Source: Acidimicrobiales bacterium (lineage in GTDB: Bacteria > Actinomycetota > Acidimicrobiia > Acidimicrobiales > MedAcidi-G1). Taken from it: a stretch of DNA of 64,000 bases. A program made the translations under genes and the position numbers. The stretch covers positions 1 to 64,000 of the forward strand of contig JAAZZG010000004.1 of assembly GCA_014237715.1 (NCBI GenBank), given 5' to 3'. The notes beneath the pieces were generated by a model, which saw only the letters and a program-made list of their open reading frames with translations, searched no databases and was not told the DNA's origin. The stretch's first letter is position 1. Each line of letters begins with the position of its first letter. This document shows positions 8,947-14,518 of this stretch, piece after piece.

Positions 8947-10137
8947 ATGAGCACCAACTACACCCTGATCTCGTCAGACTGCCACGCCGGCGGCAACATG
9001 AAGGCCTACGAGGAGTATCTCTCCCCGTCGCACCGTGAGGCATTTGCCGAGTGGCGTGGGGCCTACTCCAATCCGTTCCGCGATCTACAGGACGACGGCC
9101 GATCCCGCAACTGGGACGACGAACGGCGCAACGGGGATCTCGACGCCGAGGGCGTGGCCGCCGAGATCGTGTTCCCCAACACCGTTCCGCCGTTCTTCCC
9201 GACCGGTGCGCTCATCACCTACCCGGCCACCGACCGGGACGAGTACGAGCGGCGTCTGGAGGGCATCCGGACTCACAACCGCTGGTTGGCCGACTTCTGC
9301 GCCGCCCACCCGGAGCGTCGCTGCGGGCTGCCCCAGGTGTTCCTTAACGACCTCGACGACACCATTGCCGACCTCGAACTGGCGGCCGCCAACGGCCACT
9401 CCAGCTTCATGCTCCCAGCGGTGCCGCCGGACTCGGGCATGCCCGGGCTCTACCACCCGGTGTACGACCGTGTGTGGGCGGCGTGTAGCGACCTCGACCT
9501 GACCATCACCCAGCACGGTGGATCGGGCAACCCCAGCTACGGCGATGCCCCGGCAGCCAGCCTCATGTTCCTGTTGGAGGTGCCGTTCTTCGCCCACCGA
9601 AACCTGTCGCACCTGATCATGTCGGGCGTCTTCGACCGGTTCCCCGAACTCCGCTATGTGATGACCGAACAGGGCGTGGGCTGGGTGATCGAGGACCTAC
9701 GGAGGATGGACGGCTACCACGCCCAGATGGCGTCAGGCCGGGTCGGCGAGCTGGGCTTCCCGGCCGAACTGGTGCTGCCTGAGAAGCCGAGCGACTATTT
9801 CGCACACAACGTCTGGATCGGGGCCAGCTTCCCCAGTCCGTCAGAGGCCTCTGCGATGAAGAAGGTCGGCGTCGACCGGATGATGTGGGGAAGCGACTAT
9901 CCACACAACGAGAGCACCTTTCCCTACAACCGCCTGCACCTGCGTCGGTCGTTCAGCGACTGGGACGAGGCCGACCTGCGGAAGGTCTTTGCCGAGAACG
10001 CATCGAAGGTCTACCGGATCGACATGGATGCCCTGGCCCCATTGGCCGATCGCATCGGCCCGTCGGTCGACGAGGTGGCCACGGCGCTCGACGAGGTGCC
10101 CCGCGACGCCTTCAGCCCCGCCTTCACCCGTCCGTAG
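8947..10137 (+). CDS. Amidohydrolase family 2 protein (LigW/ACMSD-like TIM barrel)
   Basis: A 396-residue metal-dependent hydrolase or decarboxylase. The N-terminal metal motif reads LISSDCHAGG, where the usual HxH is reduced to DCH. Further metal or active-site positions are the His in LTITQHGGSGNP and the Asp in MMWGSDYPHNESTFPY near the C-terminus. The GSDYPH motif is typical of the amidohydrolase_2 family that includes ACMS and gamma-resorcylate decarboxylases; actinobacteria carry many uncharacterised relatives. It is divergent from a TetR gene and faces a second amidohydrolase (10346-11557), with an XRE remnant between. The TetR may respond to its substrate. The substrate is unknown. 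Confidence 0.85.
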   Translation: MSTNYTLISSDCHAGGNMKAYEEYLSPSHREAFAEWRGAYSNPFRDLQDDGRSRNWDDERRNGDLDAEGVAAEIVFPNTVPPFFPTGALITYPATDRDEYERRLEGIRTHNRWLADFCAAHPERRCGLPQVFLNDLDDTIADLELAAANGHSSFMLPAVPPDSGMPGLYHPVYDRVWAACSDLDLTITQHGGSGNPSYGDAPAASLMFLLEVPFFAHRNLSHLIMSGVFDRFPELRYVMTEQGVGWVIEDLRRMDGYHAQMASGRVGELGFPAELVLPEKPSDYFAHNVWIGASFPSPSEASAMKKVGVDRMMWGSDYPHNESTFPYNRLHLRRSFSDWDEADLRKVFAENASKVYRIDMDALAPLADRIGPSVDEVATALDEVPRDAFSPAFTRP

Positions 10138-10345: not shown

Positions 10346-11557
10346 TCAGGCGGTGATACCGAAGCGCTGGAGGCCGAATGCCTCGATGGCGTTGCCCCGC
10401 ATCAGCTTGTAGATCTCGCCGTCGTCGAGGCTCGCCGCGGTGCAGATCTTTGTCGCCACGTCCAGAGTGTGGGGGTAGGTCGTGTCGGCGTGCGGGAAGT
10501 CCACCTCGAAGCAGATCTGGTCCATGCCGATGACGTCCCGATTTTTGAGGCCCGTCTCGTCGTCGAAGATGCAACCCCAGATATGGCCCGGGATGTACGA
10601 GCTGGGCCGATCAGGCAGGTCGATACCGAAGCTGGCGTCGCCCCGCTCCTCCCAGATCTTGTCCATACGTTCGATGACGTAGGGCATCCAGCCCACCTGG
10701 CCCTCGGCATAGGCGATCTTGAGCTTCGGGAAGCGGACGAAGGTGCCCGACAGGATGTAGTCGCACATCGAGCCCATGGCGTTTGAGAACGTGATTGTTG
10801 ATGACACGGCAAAGGGGGCGTCGGGCGACGTTGACGGCATCTTGGAGCTGGACCCGATGTGCATGTTGACAATGGTGTCGGTCTCCTCGCATGCCCGGAG
10901 GAAGGGGTCCCAGAACCGGTCCTTGTCGTGGATCGATGGGAGGCCCAGCGGGTAGGGGTTCTCCGAGAAGGCCACGGCGAACGAGCCCTTCTCGGCACAG
11001 CGGTACACCTCGGCGGCTGCGGCGATGGGGTCCCAGAGGGGGATGAGGGTGAGCGGGATGAGCCGGCCGTTGCCGTCGCCGGCGCACCAATCGTCGATCA
11101 TCCAGTCGTTGTACGCCTGGACGCAGAGCAGGGCGAGTTCCTTGTCCTCGCGCTCCAGAAAGGCCTGGCCGCAGAACCGGGGTAGCACATTGGGGAAACA
11201 GATCGATACGTCGACATGGTTCTCGTCCATGGCGATCAGGCGGTCGGCTTGCTTCCAGCCCGCGGGGTGGATCTCATCGAAGGTGACGGGGACGATGTCG
11301 AGTTCGTCGAATCCGGCCGCTGCTGAGAGCTTGGGGAACGGGTAGACGAGGTCGTCGTACATCCACCAGTCGCACATCTGACCGCCCTCAACGCCCTTCT
11401 CGTAGGAGAAGACGCCGCCCTCGAAGTTAAACACGGCGGTGTCGCGCTCGACCCGGGGGCCGCGATCGCTGTACTTCGCCGGCAGACGTGATGTCCAGAG
11501 GTCGGGGGGTTCGACCACGTGGTCGTCGACCGAGATGATGCGGGGGATGGTCGTCAT
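10346..11557 (-). CDS. Amidohydrolase family 2 protein (second copy type)
   Basis: A 403-residue protein of the same superfamily as the facing gene at 8947 but only distantly similar. It starts MTTIPRIISVDDHVVEPPDLW, with VDDH in place of the HxH metal motif. It has the barrel His in TIVNMHIGSSSK and the Asp of CFEVDFPHADTTYPHT. Proteins with VDDHVVEPPDLW starts are abundant in mycobacteria and marine actinobacteria and are mostly uncharacterised metal-dependent hydrolases. AGGAG lies about 8 bases before the ATG. Upstream is a perfect 17-bp palindrome (11576-11592), a likely repressor site, which also occurs in its 13-bp core upstream of mutAB. Confidence 0.87.
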   Translation of the reverse strand: MTTIPRIISVDDHVVEPPDLWTSRLPAKYSDRGPRVERDTAVFNFEGGVFSYEKGVEGGQMCDWWMYDDLVYPFPKLSAAAGFDELDIVPVTFDEIHPAGWKQADRLIAMDENHVDVSICFPNVLPRFCGQAFLEREDKELALLCVQAYNDWMIDDWCAGDGNGRLIPLTLIPLWDPIAAAAEVYRCAEKGSFAVAFSENPYPLGLPSIHDKDRFWDPFLRACEETDTIVNMHIGSSSKMPSTSPDAPFAVSSTITFSNAMGSMCDYILSGTFVRFPKLKIAYAEGQVGWMPYVIERMDKIWEERGDASFGIDLPDRPSSYIPGHIWGCIFDDETGLKNRDVIGMDQICFEVDFPHADTTYPHTLDVATKICTAASLDDGEIYKLMRGNAIEAFGLQRFGITA

Positions 11558-11661: not shown

Positions 11662-11879
11662 ACGACATGCACCAAGCTGGCCAGGGGTCGGGCCGGGACC
11701 AGCCGGGTGTCATCGCTCGGCTGATGGGGATCCTCGACGAGGCCTGCACCGAGATGTGCGACGTCGAGCAGTTGGTGATCTGGGGCCGCCTCGACGACCC
11801 ACCTGGTTCCCGGAGGCCAGTTGCCGGCGACGGGTTGCGGGAGGCCGGTTACGGGAGGCTGGTTACAGGAGGCTGGTGA
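11658..11879 (+). CDS. Possible small protein, 73 residues, unknown
   Basis: This frame begins at a GTG overlapping the stop of the 8-codon ORF (GTGA) and encodes a 73-residue product with a helical-looking middle, GVIARLMGILDEACTEMCDVEQLV. The last third is composed of the 14-bp tandem repeat at 11807-11876 and overlaps the 3' end of the opposite LLM gene by 17 bp. I recognise no domain. It may be a real small protein, or a chance frame in a repeat-bearing gap. No Shine-Dalgarno sequence precedes it. Confidence 0.3.
   Translation: MNDMHQAGQGSGRDQPGVIARLMGILDEACTEMCDVEQLVIWGRLDDPPGSRRPVAGDGLREAGYGRLVTGGW
11807..11876. repeat. Degenerate 14-bp tandem repeat, five units
   Basis: Read on the minus strand, five consecutive 14-bp units follow one another: CCAGCCTCCTGTAA, CCAGCCTCCCGTAA, CCGGCCTCCCGCAA, CCCGTCGCCGGCAA and CTGGCCTCCGGGAA. 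The first unit contains the last sense codons and the TAA stop of the LLM gene; the others extend downstream. The array looks like slippage duplication of the gene's 3' end, decaying with distance. Confidence 0.75.
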
Positions 11880-12774
11880 GCAGGGCCCGGGTGCGGGCGG
11901 ACTCGTCGGGGTTGGTCCCGAACTCAAGGGCTGAGAAGTCAGTAACCCCGGCGTCGGCCAACGCCGATAGGCGGGCTGCTACCTGCTCCTCGTTGCCGAT
12001 GACCGCCACGTCACCCGGACCGGCCGCACCTTCACGGTCGAGCATGGCCCGATACGACGGCAGGAGGCCGTAGATCTCGAACACGGCGTTCGCAGCGGCC
12101 CGAGCCGCATCGACGTCACTGGTCACGCAGGTAGGCAAGCTGCAGATGATGCGAGGTGCCGATCGGCCGGCGGTGTCCGCGGCCTCGTTCAGGCGCGGGG
12201 CAATGTGGTTGGCCACCGTCCGTTCGCCGACCATCCAGAGGATCGAACCGTCGGTACGGCGCCCGGTGACCCGGAGGGCCTGTTCACCGAGAGCGGCCAC
12301 CATCACCGATGGTGCCCGGTCAACGGGGCGACCGGTCGCGATGTGGGCGGTGAACGCCTCACCGTCGTAGTCGACCGATCCGCTCTCCAGTAGCGGCTGG
12401 AGCACCTCCAGGTAGTCGATGAGGTGGCGGATCGGCTTCTCGAACGAGAGGCCAAGCATGTCCTCGATCACCGGGCGGTGCGAAAGGCCGATGCCCAGTA
12501 CCAGCGGACGATCGCCAAGAGCCGCCGCCGTGGTCAAAGCCTGACCGGCGAGCGCTGTCGGATGCCGGGGAAAGGTCGGGATGACGGCGGTGCCGAACTC
12601 CATGCCGGGGGCCACGTCGGCCAGCGCGGTGAACGCCGTGAGGGCGTCGATCAGCCCCGTCTGGGCCAGCCACCACCCGGAGAAGCCATCCTCAGCGGCC
12701 CGGACAGCGTGCGCGCGGAGTCGACCGAGGTCGGTGTGCTGTAGTTCGGCTGAAGCATTGATGGCGATACGCAT
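11863..12774 (-). CDS. LLM-class F420-dependent oxidoreductase
   Basis: A 303-residue luciferase-like monooxygenase-fold enzyme. It starts MRIAINASAELQHTDLGRLRAHAVRAAEDGFSGWWLAQ (TIM-barrel strand 1 and helix 1) and continues with FGTAVIPTFPRHPTALAGQALT and the LGIGLSHRPVIEDMLGL loop, typical of F420-using actinobacterial members. Such proteins use reduced F420 or flavin for redox chemistry on diverse small molecules; no substrate is evident. The ATG at 12774 has a purine-rich GAGAGA upstream; a longer frame back to 13035 overlaps the SRPBCC gene and is rejected. The stop codon lies in a 14-bp tandem repeat. It follows the SRPBCC gene by 50 bp on the same strand. Confidence 0.87.
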   Translation of the reverse strand: MRIAINASAELQHTDLGRLRAHAVRAAEDGFSGWWLAQTGLIDALTAFTALADVAPGMEFGTAVIPTFPRHPTALAGQALTTAAALGDRPLVLGIGLSHRPVIEDMLGLSFEKPIRHLIDYLEVLQPLLESGSVDYDGEAFTAHIATGRPVDRAPSVMVAALGEQALRVTGRRTDGSILWMVGERTVANHIAPRLNEAADTAGRSAPRIICSLPTCVTSDVDAARAAANAVFEIYGLLPSYRAMLDREGAAGPGDVAVIGNEEQVAARLSALADAGVTDFSALEFGTNPDESARTRALLTSLL

Positions 12775-12824: not shown

Positions 12825-13304
12825 TCAGACGGCTTCGGCTCGAGCCTTCACGTCGTCGGCGAAGCGGGTTAGGAACGATTCCACATGGGCCAAGAAGGTG
12901 TCCGACGCGCCGTCTGATAGCGGATCTACCACGATCGACCAAGCCATGAGGCAGTGGTCGTCCTGATCGGTGAACGCCGTGGTCCCCTGATAGAGGGCCA
13001 CCGGGGCGCCAGAGAGTTCGTATACCCGGCGCCACGGTGGCTCGAAGGAGATGACCTCTTCGGAGAGGTCCAGATCGCCGAGCGTGAACTCGAAGCGGGC
13101 ACCCAGACCGTGGGGTTCGGGGCTGCCGTCCACTACCGGGCCTCCGGTCGCCTCACTGATCAGGGCGCAGGCGGCGTCGAAGGCAACCGCCCGGGGAGCG
13201 GCGATTCCCCGCTCGGCCACGAACGTCGTGTACTGCTTCTTCGGGCGGGGATCCCCGCCGATCTCACCGTCGACCAGGTCACGGTCCGAATCTTGGTTGC
13301 GCAC
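12825..13304 (-). CDS. SRPBCC (START-like/polyketide cyclase) family protein
   Basis: A 159-residue protein with the SRPBCC pattern: a beta strand near the start (QYTTFVAERGIAAPRAVAFDAACALI), then LGARFEFTLGDLDLSEEVISFEPPWRRVYEL, YQGTTAFTDQDDHCLMAWSIVVDP, and a long C-terminal amphipathic helix (DTFLAHVESFLTRFADDVKARAEAV). These folds bind hydrophobic ligands. The GTG at 13304 is chosen because TACGGT ends 7 bases upstream; an in-frame TTG at 13343 would overlap the divergent MFS gene. The -10 elements of this gene and the MFS gene overlap, so the two are mechanically linked at the promoter. Biological role unknown. Confidence 0.7.
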   Translation of the reverse strand: MRNQDSDRDLVDGEIGGDPRPKKQYTTFVAERGIAAPRAVAFDAACALISEATGGPVVDGSPEPHGLGARFEFTLGDLDLSEEVISFEPPWRRVYELSGAPVALYQGTTAFTDQDDHCLMAWSIVVDPLSDGASDTFLAHVESFLTRFADDVKARAEAV

Positions 13305-13311
13305 CGGCCGG

Positions 13312-13317
13312 ACCGTA
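13312..13317 (-). promoter_or_regulatory. Putative -10 (TACGGT) of leaderless SRPBCC gene
   Basis: TACGGT on the minus strand ends 7 bases before the GTG at 13304. It shares the two base pairs 13316-13317 with the opposing -10 of the MFS gene. Confidence 0.45.
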
Positions 13318-13321
13318 CTGT
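13316..13321 (+). promoter_or_regulatory. Putative -10 (TACTGT) of leaderless MFS gene
   Basis: TACTGT ends 6 bases before the ATG at 13328. It overlaps the opposing -10 of the SRPBCC gene by two bases, which implies competition for RNA polymerase. Confidence 0.45.
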
Positions 13322-13327
13322 GCGCCG

Positions 13328-14518
13328 ATGGCGGGACCACCAACGACCGGACCAGAGGCGGGTGACCGGCTGGCTACCCCACGATTCCTCGTGTTGTGCC
13401 TGGCGTCGTTCGGCTACTTCACCGCACTGGGCAGTACGTGGCCGGTCGTTCCAGCCTTCGTGGAACACGAGCTCGGGGGAGGCGGCGTGGCCATCGGCCT
13501 GTCGGTGGGGGCATTCGGCTTTTCCGCCGCGTTGCTGCGGCCCCTCATCGGGCCGCTGGGCGATCGGCGAGGCCGCCGATTCCTCCTGCTGTTGGGTTCG
13601 GTCGGGGTCTCGACCTCGTTGCTGCTACTGGTGCCCGCCACCTCGGTGGCCATGGTGGTGGCCGCCCGACTGGTGCTGGGCATGGGCGAGGCTGCCTTCT
13701 TCATCGGTATCTCGTCGGCCATTCAGGACCTCTCGCCGCCCGATCGCCGGGGCGAAGCCACTAGCTACTTCACCGTCACCCTCTACACCGGCTTGGCCCT
13801 TGGTCCGGCCCTCGGCGAGTGGCTGATGGACAACGGTGGGCCGGATCGGGCGTTCGTGGTGGCCGCCGTGTTGGGAGTGGTGCCGGTCCTCCTAGCCGGA
13901 GCTGCACCGGGCCGACCGCTCGACCCGCCAGACGTGCCGCTGTTCCGGTGGCGGCTCCACCCGGCGGCCATCCGTCCCGGGGTGATGCTGTTCGTAGGCC
14001 TGCTGGCCTACTCGGGCTTCCTGGCTTTTATGGCCCTGCACGCCGCTGACGTGGGCATCGCTTCGTCAGGCACGGTGTTCGCGGCATTCGCGGGGCTCGT
14101 GGTGGCAGTCCGACTGATCGGAGCGAAGATCCCCGACCGGTTGGGATCGTTGGCCACCACCCGGCTGTCCATGGGATTTACTGCGGCAGGGATGTTGGTC
14201 CTTGGCCTGTGGACCCAACCAGCGGGCGTCTACGCCGGAGCGATGGTCATGGCCCTCGGACAGTGCTTCCTGTTTCCGGCCCTCTTCGTACTGGTGGTGG
14301 ACCGTGCACCTGACGCCGAACGCAGTCACGCCATCGGGTCGTTCAGCGTGGCGTTCGACCTGGCCATCGCAGTGGGCGGTTTCCTGGTGGGGGCCGTGGT
14401 GGCGCTCACCGACCGACCCGGCGGCTTCCTGTTCTGTGCGGCAGTGGCAGCCGGGGCGTTGGCCCTCACTGGTCCGGTCCTGGGTGGCGTCGGTGCGATA
14501 GCCCGCTCCGAAGCCTGA
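13328..14518 (+). CDS. Major facilitator superfamily transporter
   Basis: A 396-residue integral membrane protein with about 12 hydrophobic segments. The MFS motif A lies between segments 2 and 3 (LIGPLGDRRGRRFLLLLG), and RLVLGMGEAAFFIGISSAIQDLSPPDRRGEA resembles motif B/C loops of drug-proton antiporters. An export role for a small molecule is plausible but not shown. It is divergent from the SRPBCC gene with start codons only 23 bp apart. The 187 bp downstream to the acyl-CoA dehydrogenase gene holds two short imperfect hairpins but no clear terminator. Confidence 0.88.
   Translation: MAGPPTTGPEAGDRLATPRFLVLCLASFGYFTALGSTWPVVPAFVEHELGGGGVAIGLSVGAFGFSAALLRPLIGPLGDRRGRRFLLLLGSVGVSTSLLLLVPATSVAMVVAARLVLGMGEAAFFIGISSAIQDLSPPDRRGEATSYFTVTLYTGLALGPALGEWLMDNGGPDRAFVVAAVLGVVPVLLAGAAPGRPLDPPDVPLFRWRLHPAAIRPGVMLFVGLLAYSGFLAFMALHAADVGIASSGTVFAAFAGLVVAVRLIGAKIPDRLGSLATTRLSMGFTAAGMLVLGLWTQPAGVYAGAMVMALGQCFLFPALFVLVVDRAPDAERSHAIGSFSVAFDLAIAVGGFLVGAVVALTDRPGGFLFCAAVAAGALALTGPVLGGVGAIARSEA

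Follow-up and report, generated by a model that had tools for sequence, protein, structure and literature searches.

Within the 64,000-nucleotide stretch of DNA analysed here (the window), a gene for a SRPBCC-fold protein and a gene for a transporter of the MFS family are divergently oriented and separated by 23 bp. The Polyketide_cyc2 (SRPBCC) match of the minus-strand gene (E=1.7e-5) falls slightly short of the Pfam cut-off, and the plus-strand gene matches MFS_1 (Pfam, E=3e-43). The features of the locus are as follows:

11863-12774, minus strand: F420-dependent LLM (luciferase-like) oxidoreductase gene, the next gene after SRPBCC
12825..13304, minus strand: open reading frame of the SRPBCC-fold gene, 159 aa, start GTG at 13304-13302
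13305..13327, no strand assigned: intergenic gap of 23 bp, putative bidirectional promoter core, its length fixed in 8/8 paired congeners
13312..13317, minus strand: putative -10 TACGGT of the SRPBCC gene (plus-strand letters ACCGTA), 7 bp before the GTG
13316..13317, no strand assigned: shared TA step, positions -12/-11 of both putative promoters
13316..13321, plus strand: putative -10 TACTGT of the MFS gene, 6 bp before the ATG
13328..14518, plus strand: open reading frame of the MFS transporter gene, 396 aa, start ATG at 13328

Positions 13302-13330 read CAC CGGCCGG ACCGTACTGT GCGCCG ATG, where CAC (13302-13304) is the GTG of the minus strand and the nearly symmetric ACCGTACTGT forms the core of the gap. 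The gap (13305-13327) holds no Shine-Dalgarno-like GGAGG. Beside the LLM and SRPBCC genes, two Amidohydro_2 genes lie close together at 8947-10137 (plus) and 10346-11557 (minus) of the window, a pairing that suggests a neighbourhood devoted to small-molecule degradation.

Orthologues of both genes were collected from the same genus, the matches that bear names being Acidimicrobiaceae and Acidimicrobiales metagenome assemblies. SRPBCC orthologues begin with GTG or ATG at the site of 13304 and MFS orthologues with ATG or GTG at the site of 13328, the two codons swapping in place at both starts among the paired genomes, and relatives having the SRPBCC/MFS pair yielded no conserved alternative start for either gene. 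A crude gene caller had picked GTG13391 as the MFS start; this candidate was rejected, since the N-terminus upstream of it is conserved in relatives. An earlier note on this DNA had placed the starts at GTG 13304 and ATG 13328, 23 bp apart, and was right about both of them to the base.

The distance between the divergent starts is exactly 23 bp in all eight genomes that have the pair (G000, which is the genome at hand, and G002, G016, G012, G005, G004, G014 and G015); these represent seven distinct gap sequences, G002 and G016 being identical. The spacing is fixed although the adjacent N-terminus of the SRPBCC protein varies by indels. Gap identity to G000 amounts to 78-96%, compared with 46-60% at the fourfold-degenerate third positions of the MFS gene (five more distant genomes); in the near relative G002, gap and fourfold identity hardly differ (0.91 and 0.92). 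GGACCGTAC is invariant in the eight paired genomes and the plus hexamer reads TACYGT in every one of them, while TACGGT is invariant in all ten genomes with the SRPBCC gene at this promoter, including two that lack the MFS gene, G010 and G011. Conservation of the 23-bp gap in related genomes, which the earlier note had proposed as a check, is thus borne out, and the divergent arrangement itself is conserved. Such conservation of the gap may also be compatible with an additional binding protein.

The two hexamers had been described as TACGGT (minus) and TACTGT (plus), overlapping at 13316-13317 and at leaderless spacing, and the sequence agrees at each of these coordinates. The wider leaderless signal was assessed in 1.25 Mb (1.247 Mb) of G000, an assembly of 2.33 Mb in 75 contigs, with 1,126 genes called by an ad hoc codon-usage script and 1,123 starts scanned for TANNNT. 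The motif stands at spacing 6, 7 and 8 before 88, 52 and 47 of these starts, respectively, and occurs 0-5 times per position at other spacings, except for 14 at spacing 9. This enrichment suggests that about 17% of the genes carry a leaderless promoter signature, a share near the 19% average of leaderless genes in Actinobacteria, which have TANNNT upstream (PMC3160421), and near the 22-26% obtained by mapping in M. tuberculosis (PMC3898074). With spacings of 7 and 6, both hexamers of the present locus fall in the zone of about 6-8 bp before the start where TANNNT is enriched genome-wide. They resemble the actinobacterial leaderless genes described previously (PMC3160421; PMC3898074) in having TANNNT at about -12 to -7, the same spacing and no clear -35; however, those studies treat starts one by one, whereas here two leaderless promoters would merge via a shared TA. 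TACGGT is common among the leaderless -10 hexamers of the genome (12/187) and TACTGT is rare (1/187). No conserved -35 was demonstrated on either side: TTGGTT, which stands 17 bp upstream of the plus -10 in G000, was considered as a -35 box and rejected, G012 lacking it by eye.

Relatives in which the pair is broken suggest that hexamer decay is coupled to the gene, each hexamer following its own (G010, G011 and G003). The MFS gene is absent from G010 and G011, the latter retaining a mere remnant of its start. Both genomes keep GGACCGTA 7 bp from the SRPBCC start, and the plus hexamer has decayed to TAGTTC in G010 and is misplaced in G011, where the gap is one base shorter. In the SRPBCC tree the two cluster together among the divergent genomes, the nine-row fork being weakly supported (90/85). 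MFS and SRPBCC are separated by a gamma-glutamyltranspeptidase gene in G006 (L077:2812-4173), G003 (L080) and G009 (L082), and apparently in G008 too, where the locus is split over two contigs. Upstream of MFS, TACCCT-GCGCCG-ATG is retained by G003 and G006, and this stretch is masked in G009. G003 no longer has the minus element; G006 still carries it (ACCGTA) despite the relocation of the SRPBCC gene. Where the transpeptidase gene intervenes, SRPBCC has another leaderless-looking element, CATGAT at spacing 6. Most of the SRPBCC orthologues from outside the divergent clade share a conserved element resembling GCATGATC, whose CATGAT stands 6 bp ahead of the start (loci L011, L012, L013, L016, L020-L025, L027, L030 and L031). 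The CATGAT element suggests a different type of leaderless promoter, outside TANNNT. G000, G002, G016, G004, G005, G014 and G015 lack the transpeptidase gene, which stands before SRPBCC in other genera as well (G019, G021); its absence suggests deletion as the origin of the 23-bp arrangement. As the simplest history we infer that loss of the transpeptidase gene by deletion placed SRPBCC under the mirror -10 within the MFS promoter.

Judged by sequence, the shared-TA divergent design is not unique to this locus but recurs in marine actinobacterial (Acidimicrobiia) genomes across the order. Among 177 divergent pairs in the 1.25 Mb of G000, five have both leaderless hexamers sharing a TA, with 0.31 expected per offset (Poisson P about 2e-5); when the present locus is left out, four remain (P about 3e-4, calculated by hand). 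At any other offset below 15, the 177 pairs include none with two hexamers. The gaps of the five shared-TA pairs measure 22, 23, 23, 23 and 26 bp. The other four join gpsA-like and CofC-like genes, zinc-dehydrogenase and P450 genes, NUDIX and SulP (sulfate permease) genes, and GNAT and endonuclease III-like genes, both neighbours belonging to recognisable protein families in each case, and the cores differ among pairs of the same geometry (ACCCTAGGGT, ATCCTAGGGT, ACCGTAGGGT). Three shared-TA pairs lie within 8.5 kb on contig C55, at 59448 (L070), 63817 (L071) and 67969 (L072), a cluster made up of the gpsA-like/CofC-like, dehydrogenase/P450 and NUDIX/sulfate permease pairs. On contig C2, which is outside the 1.25-Mb sample, a 73-aa ORF that has no Pfam match and a YaaA-family peroxide-stress gene point away from each other (L062:1282-2330) across the same 23-bp shared-TA gap, and a sequence like this gap recurs in about ten congeners.

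For counts over many genomes, the same core at the wrong spacing served as control; a reversed pattern was judged unfair, since coding DNA contains fewer TA than AT steps. The shared-TA pattern occurs 86 times in 17 genomes of the genus versus 5 at wrong spacing, counts that are non-independent as individual pairs, for example ACCCTAGGGT with its 22-bp gap, recur in many congeners. In 24 genomes from other families of the order the figures are 198 versus 31, or 178 versus 15 without the AT-rich G056, and the rest of the family to which the genus belongs, AT-rich genomes included, shows little excess (130 versus 88). Inspection of 30 pattern matches, one per genome, revealed convincing coding on both sides in 13. 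A phylum-wide scan, which is uninterpretable in AT-rich genomes, gave no uniform pattern excess outside the order.

The geometry, its conservation, the spacing-specific enrichment and the coupling of hexamer decay to the gene are seen directly in the sequences, and from them we infer promoter activity, transcription start sites and leaderless translation at this locus. The 23-bp gap very probably acts as a single -10-driven promoter of the bidirectional 23-bp class, from which both mRNAs would be leaderless. Two outward-facing TANNNT -10 elements would share their first two base pairs, a palindromic TA at -12/-11, and the near-palindrome ACCGTACTGT would serve RNA polymerase in either orientation. 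Transcription would start at, or within about a base of, each start codon, and leaderless mRNAs of this kind would lock the start codons to the promoter, 22-24 bp apart, and would also account for the lack of a Shine-Dalgarno sequence. The shared promoter could be occupied by one polymerase at a time; the earlier note had argued that RNA polymerase can open one direction only, and indeed the geometry cannot hold two polymerases. By analogy with E. coli, both genes would probably be expressed independently at ordinary weak activity, with interference arising only if one direction were strongly activated. The rarity of TACTGT, the lack of a conserved -35 and the retention of ACCGTA in G006 speak against the bidirectional reading.

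Both ingredients, the bidirectional promoter and the leaderless mRNA, are already known, and their combination is new as far as searched: no report linking the two was found in the literature searched, of which subscription papers were partly covered. In E. coli, bidirectional promoters commonly have start sites 18, 10 and 23 bp apart (PMC12825309), and in the shared -10 class the -10s of opposite strands overlap in a described configuration with divergent start sites 7-25 bp apart (PMC10268837, PMC12825309). The present locus has in common with the promoters described by Warman, Grainger and co-workers (PMC12825309, PMC10268837) a short near-symmetric -10 region that would be used in both orientations, under mutually exclusive occupancy; its hexamers share TA as in the shared -10 class, and the predicted start-site distance of 23-24 bp fits the 23-bp class. 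Unlike those cases, both transcripts would here be leaderless, with the gene starts locked, and a second protein-coding gene is the partner. In the genus, pattern matches number 86 for the 23-bp geometry and 4 for the 18-bp geometry (TANNNTA), whereas 18 bp dominates in E. coli; the contrast is no more than suggestive, since TANNNTA needs two TA steps. Related cases come from M. tuberculosis (PMC3898074, PMC5648196). There, prpD/Rv1129c is likewise divergent with both genes leaderless, and lysG/lysE is likewise divergent with overlapping promoters, the second lysE promoter being leaderless; lysG and lysE are 108 bp apart, with an inverted repeat bound by their own regulator. In the passages considered, a shared -10 between two leaderless starts is not shown for either pair.

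The shared -10 could alternatively be a true regulatory switch, with the cell expressing either the SRPBCC operon or the MFS transporter. Such an either/or switch is physically plausible but unproven, and we regard it as unlikely. Two polymerases at once are forbidden by the geometry, the arrangement is strictly conserved, and in E. coli strong activation one way represses the other (PMC12825309). However, mutual exclusion was observed there only when one direction was strongly activated, basal activity being too low for competition in all five bidirectional promoters tested (PMC12825309), and at the present locus neither an activator site nor a regulator gene was identified. The same design moreover joins unrelated gene pairs and need not encode a choice; this variety makes a purpose-built switch less favoured, and the proposal in the earlier note of a built-in choice specific to a ligand-binding protein versus a transporter finds no support here. 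Its accompanying remark that there is no room for an operator holds within the intergenic gap but not beyond it; the opening codons of either gene could still accommodate a regulator.

It is improbable that the near-palindrome serves chiefly as an operator for a repressor or an activator, with the real promoters or start sites elsewhere (inside either gene). The near symmetry and strong conservation of the core ACCGTACTGT would fit an operator, but this very symmetry is expected of two -10s that face outward and have a TA in common, the half-sites track their own gene when the pair breaks (G010, G011, G003), the leaderless spacing is fixed, and pairs of the same geometry carry the other cores ACCCTAGGGT, ATCCTAGGGT and ACCGTAGGGT. 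TANNNT is short, so that in principle one promoter might be real and the other hexamer a chance match, and the rarity of TACTGT among the leaderless -10s of the genome fits this idea; yet each hexamer persists alongside its own gene and degenerates where that gene is gone, both stand at the spacing enriched genome-wide and the start codons are fixed on both sides, which makes coincidence very improbable. Hardly any credence can be given to an SRPBCC start further upstream, at TTG13343 or GTG13340, which would overlap MFS and make the conservation a coding one. The frame is open up to TTG13343, but G012 and other relatives have neither of these codons, and position 13304 alternates between GTG and ATG. 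This longer gene was rejected as its start is not conserved in relatives; a start inside MFS was also one of the outcomes that the earlier note had named as contrary to its reading.

The reading as one bidirectional promoter for two leaderless genes can be extended beyond this locus, with about even chances of being correct. In Acidimicrobiia, or at least in their high-GC families, leaderless expression may have made the shared-TA promoter a standard module, with starts locked 22-24 bp apart and the whole intergenic region forming the core of one polymerase footprint, and new pairs would arise through deletions that bring a gene up against the mirror of an existing -10. This proposal draws on the loss of the transpeptidase gene at the present locus and on G006, which already has the mirror -10 upstream of MFS. 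The present locus would provide a minimal promoter, with a single 2-bp step common to two promoters and setting both start codons, and would tie together the two known themes of bidirectional promoters and leaderless mRNAs. A distance of 22-24 bp between divergent start codons is predicted to be diagnostic of a shared promoter; for uncultured actinobacteria, such a rule could help to correct annotated gene starts and to predict where transcription begins. The presence of several unrelated pairs in one genome would allow a direct test of whether polymerases compete as a consequence of sharing.
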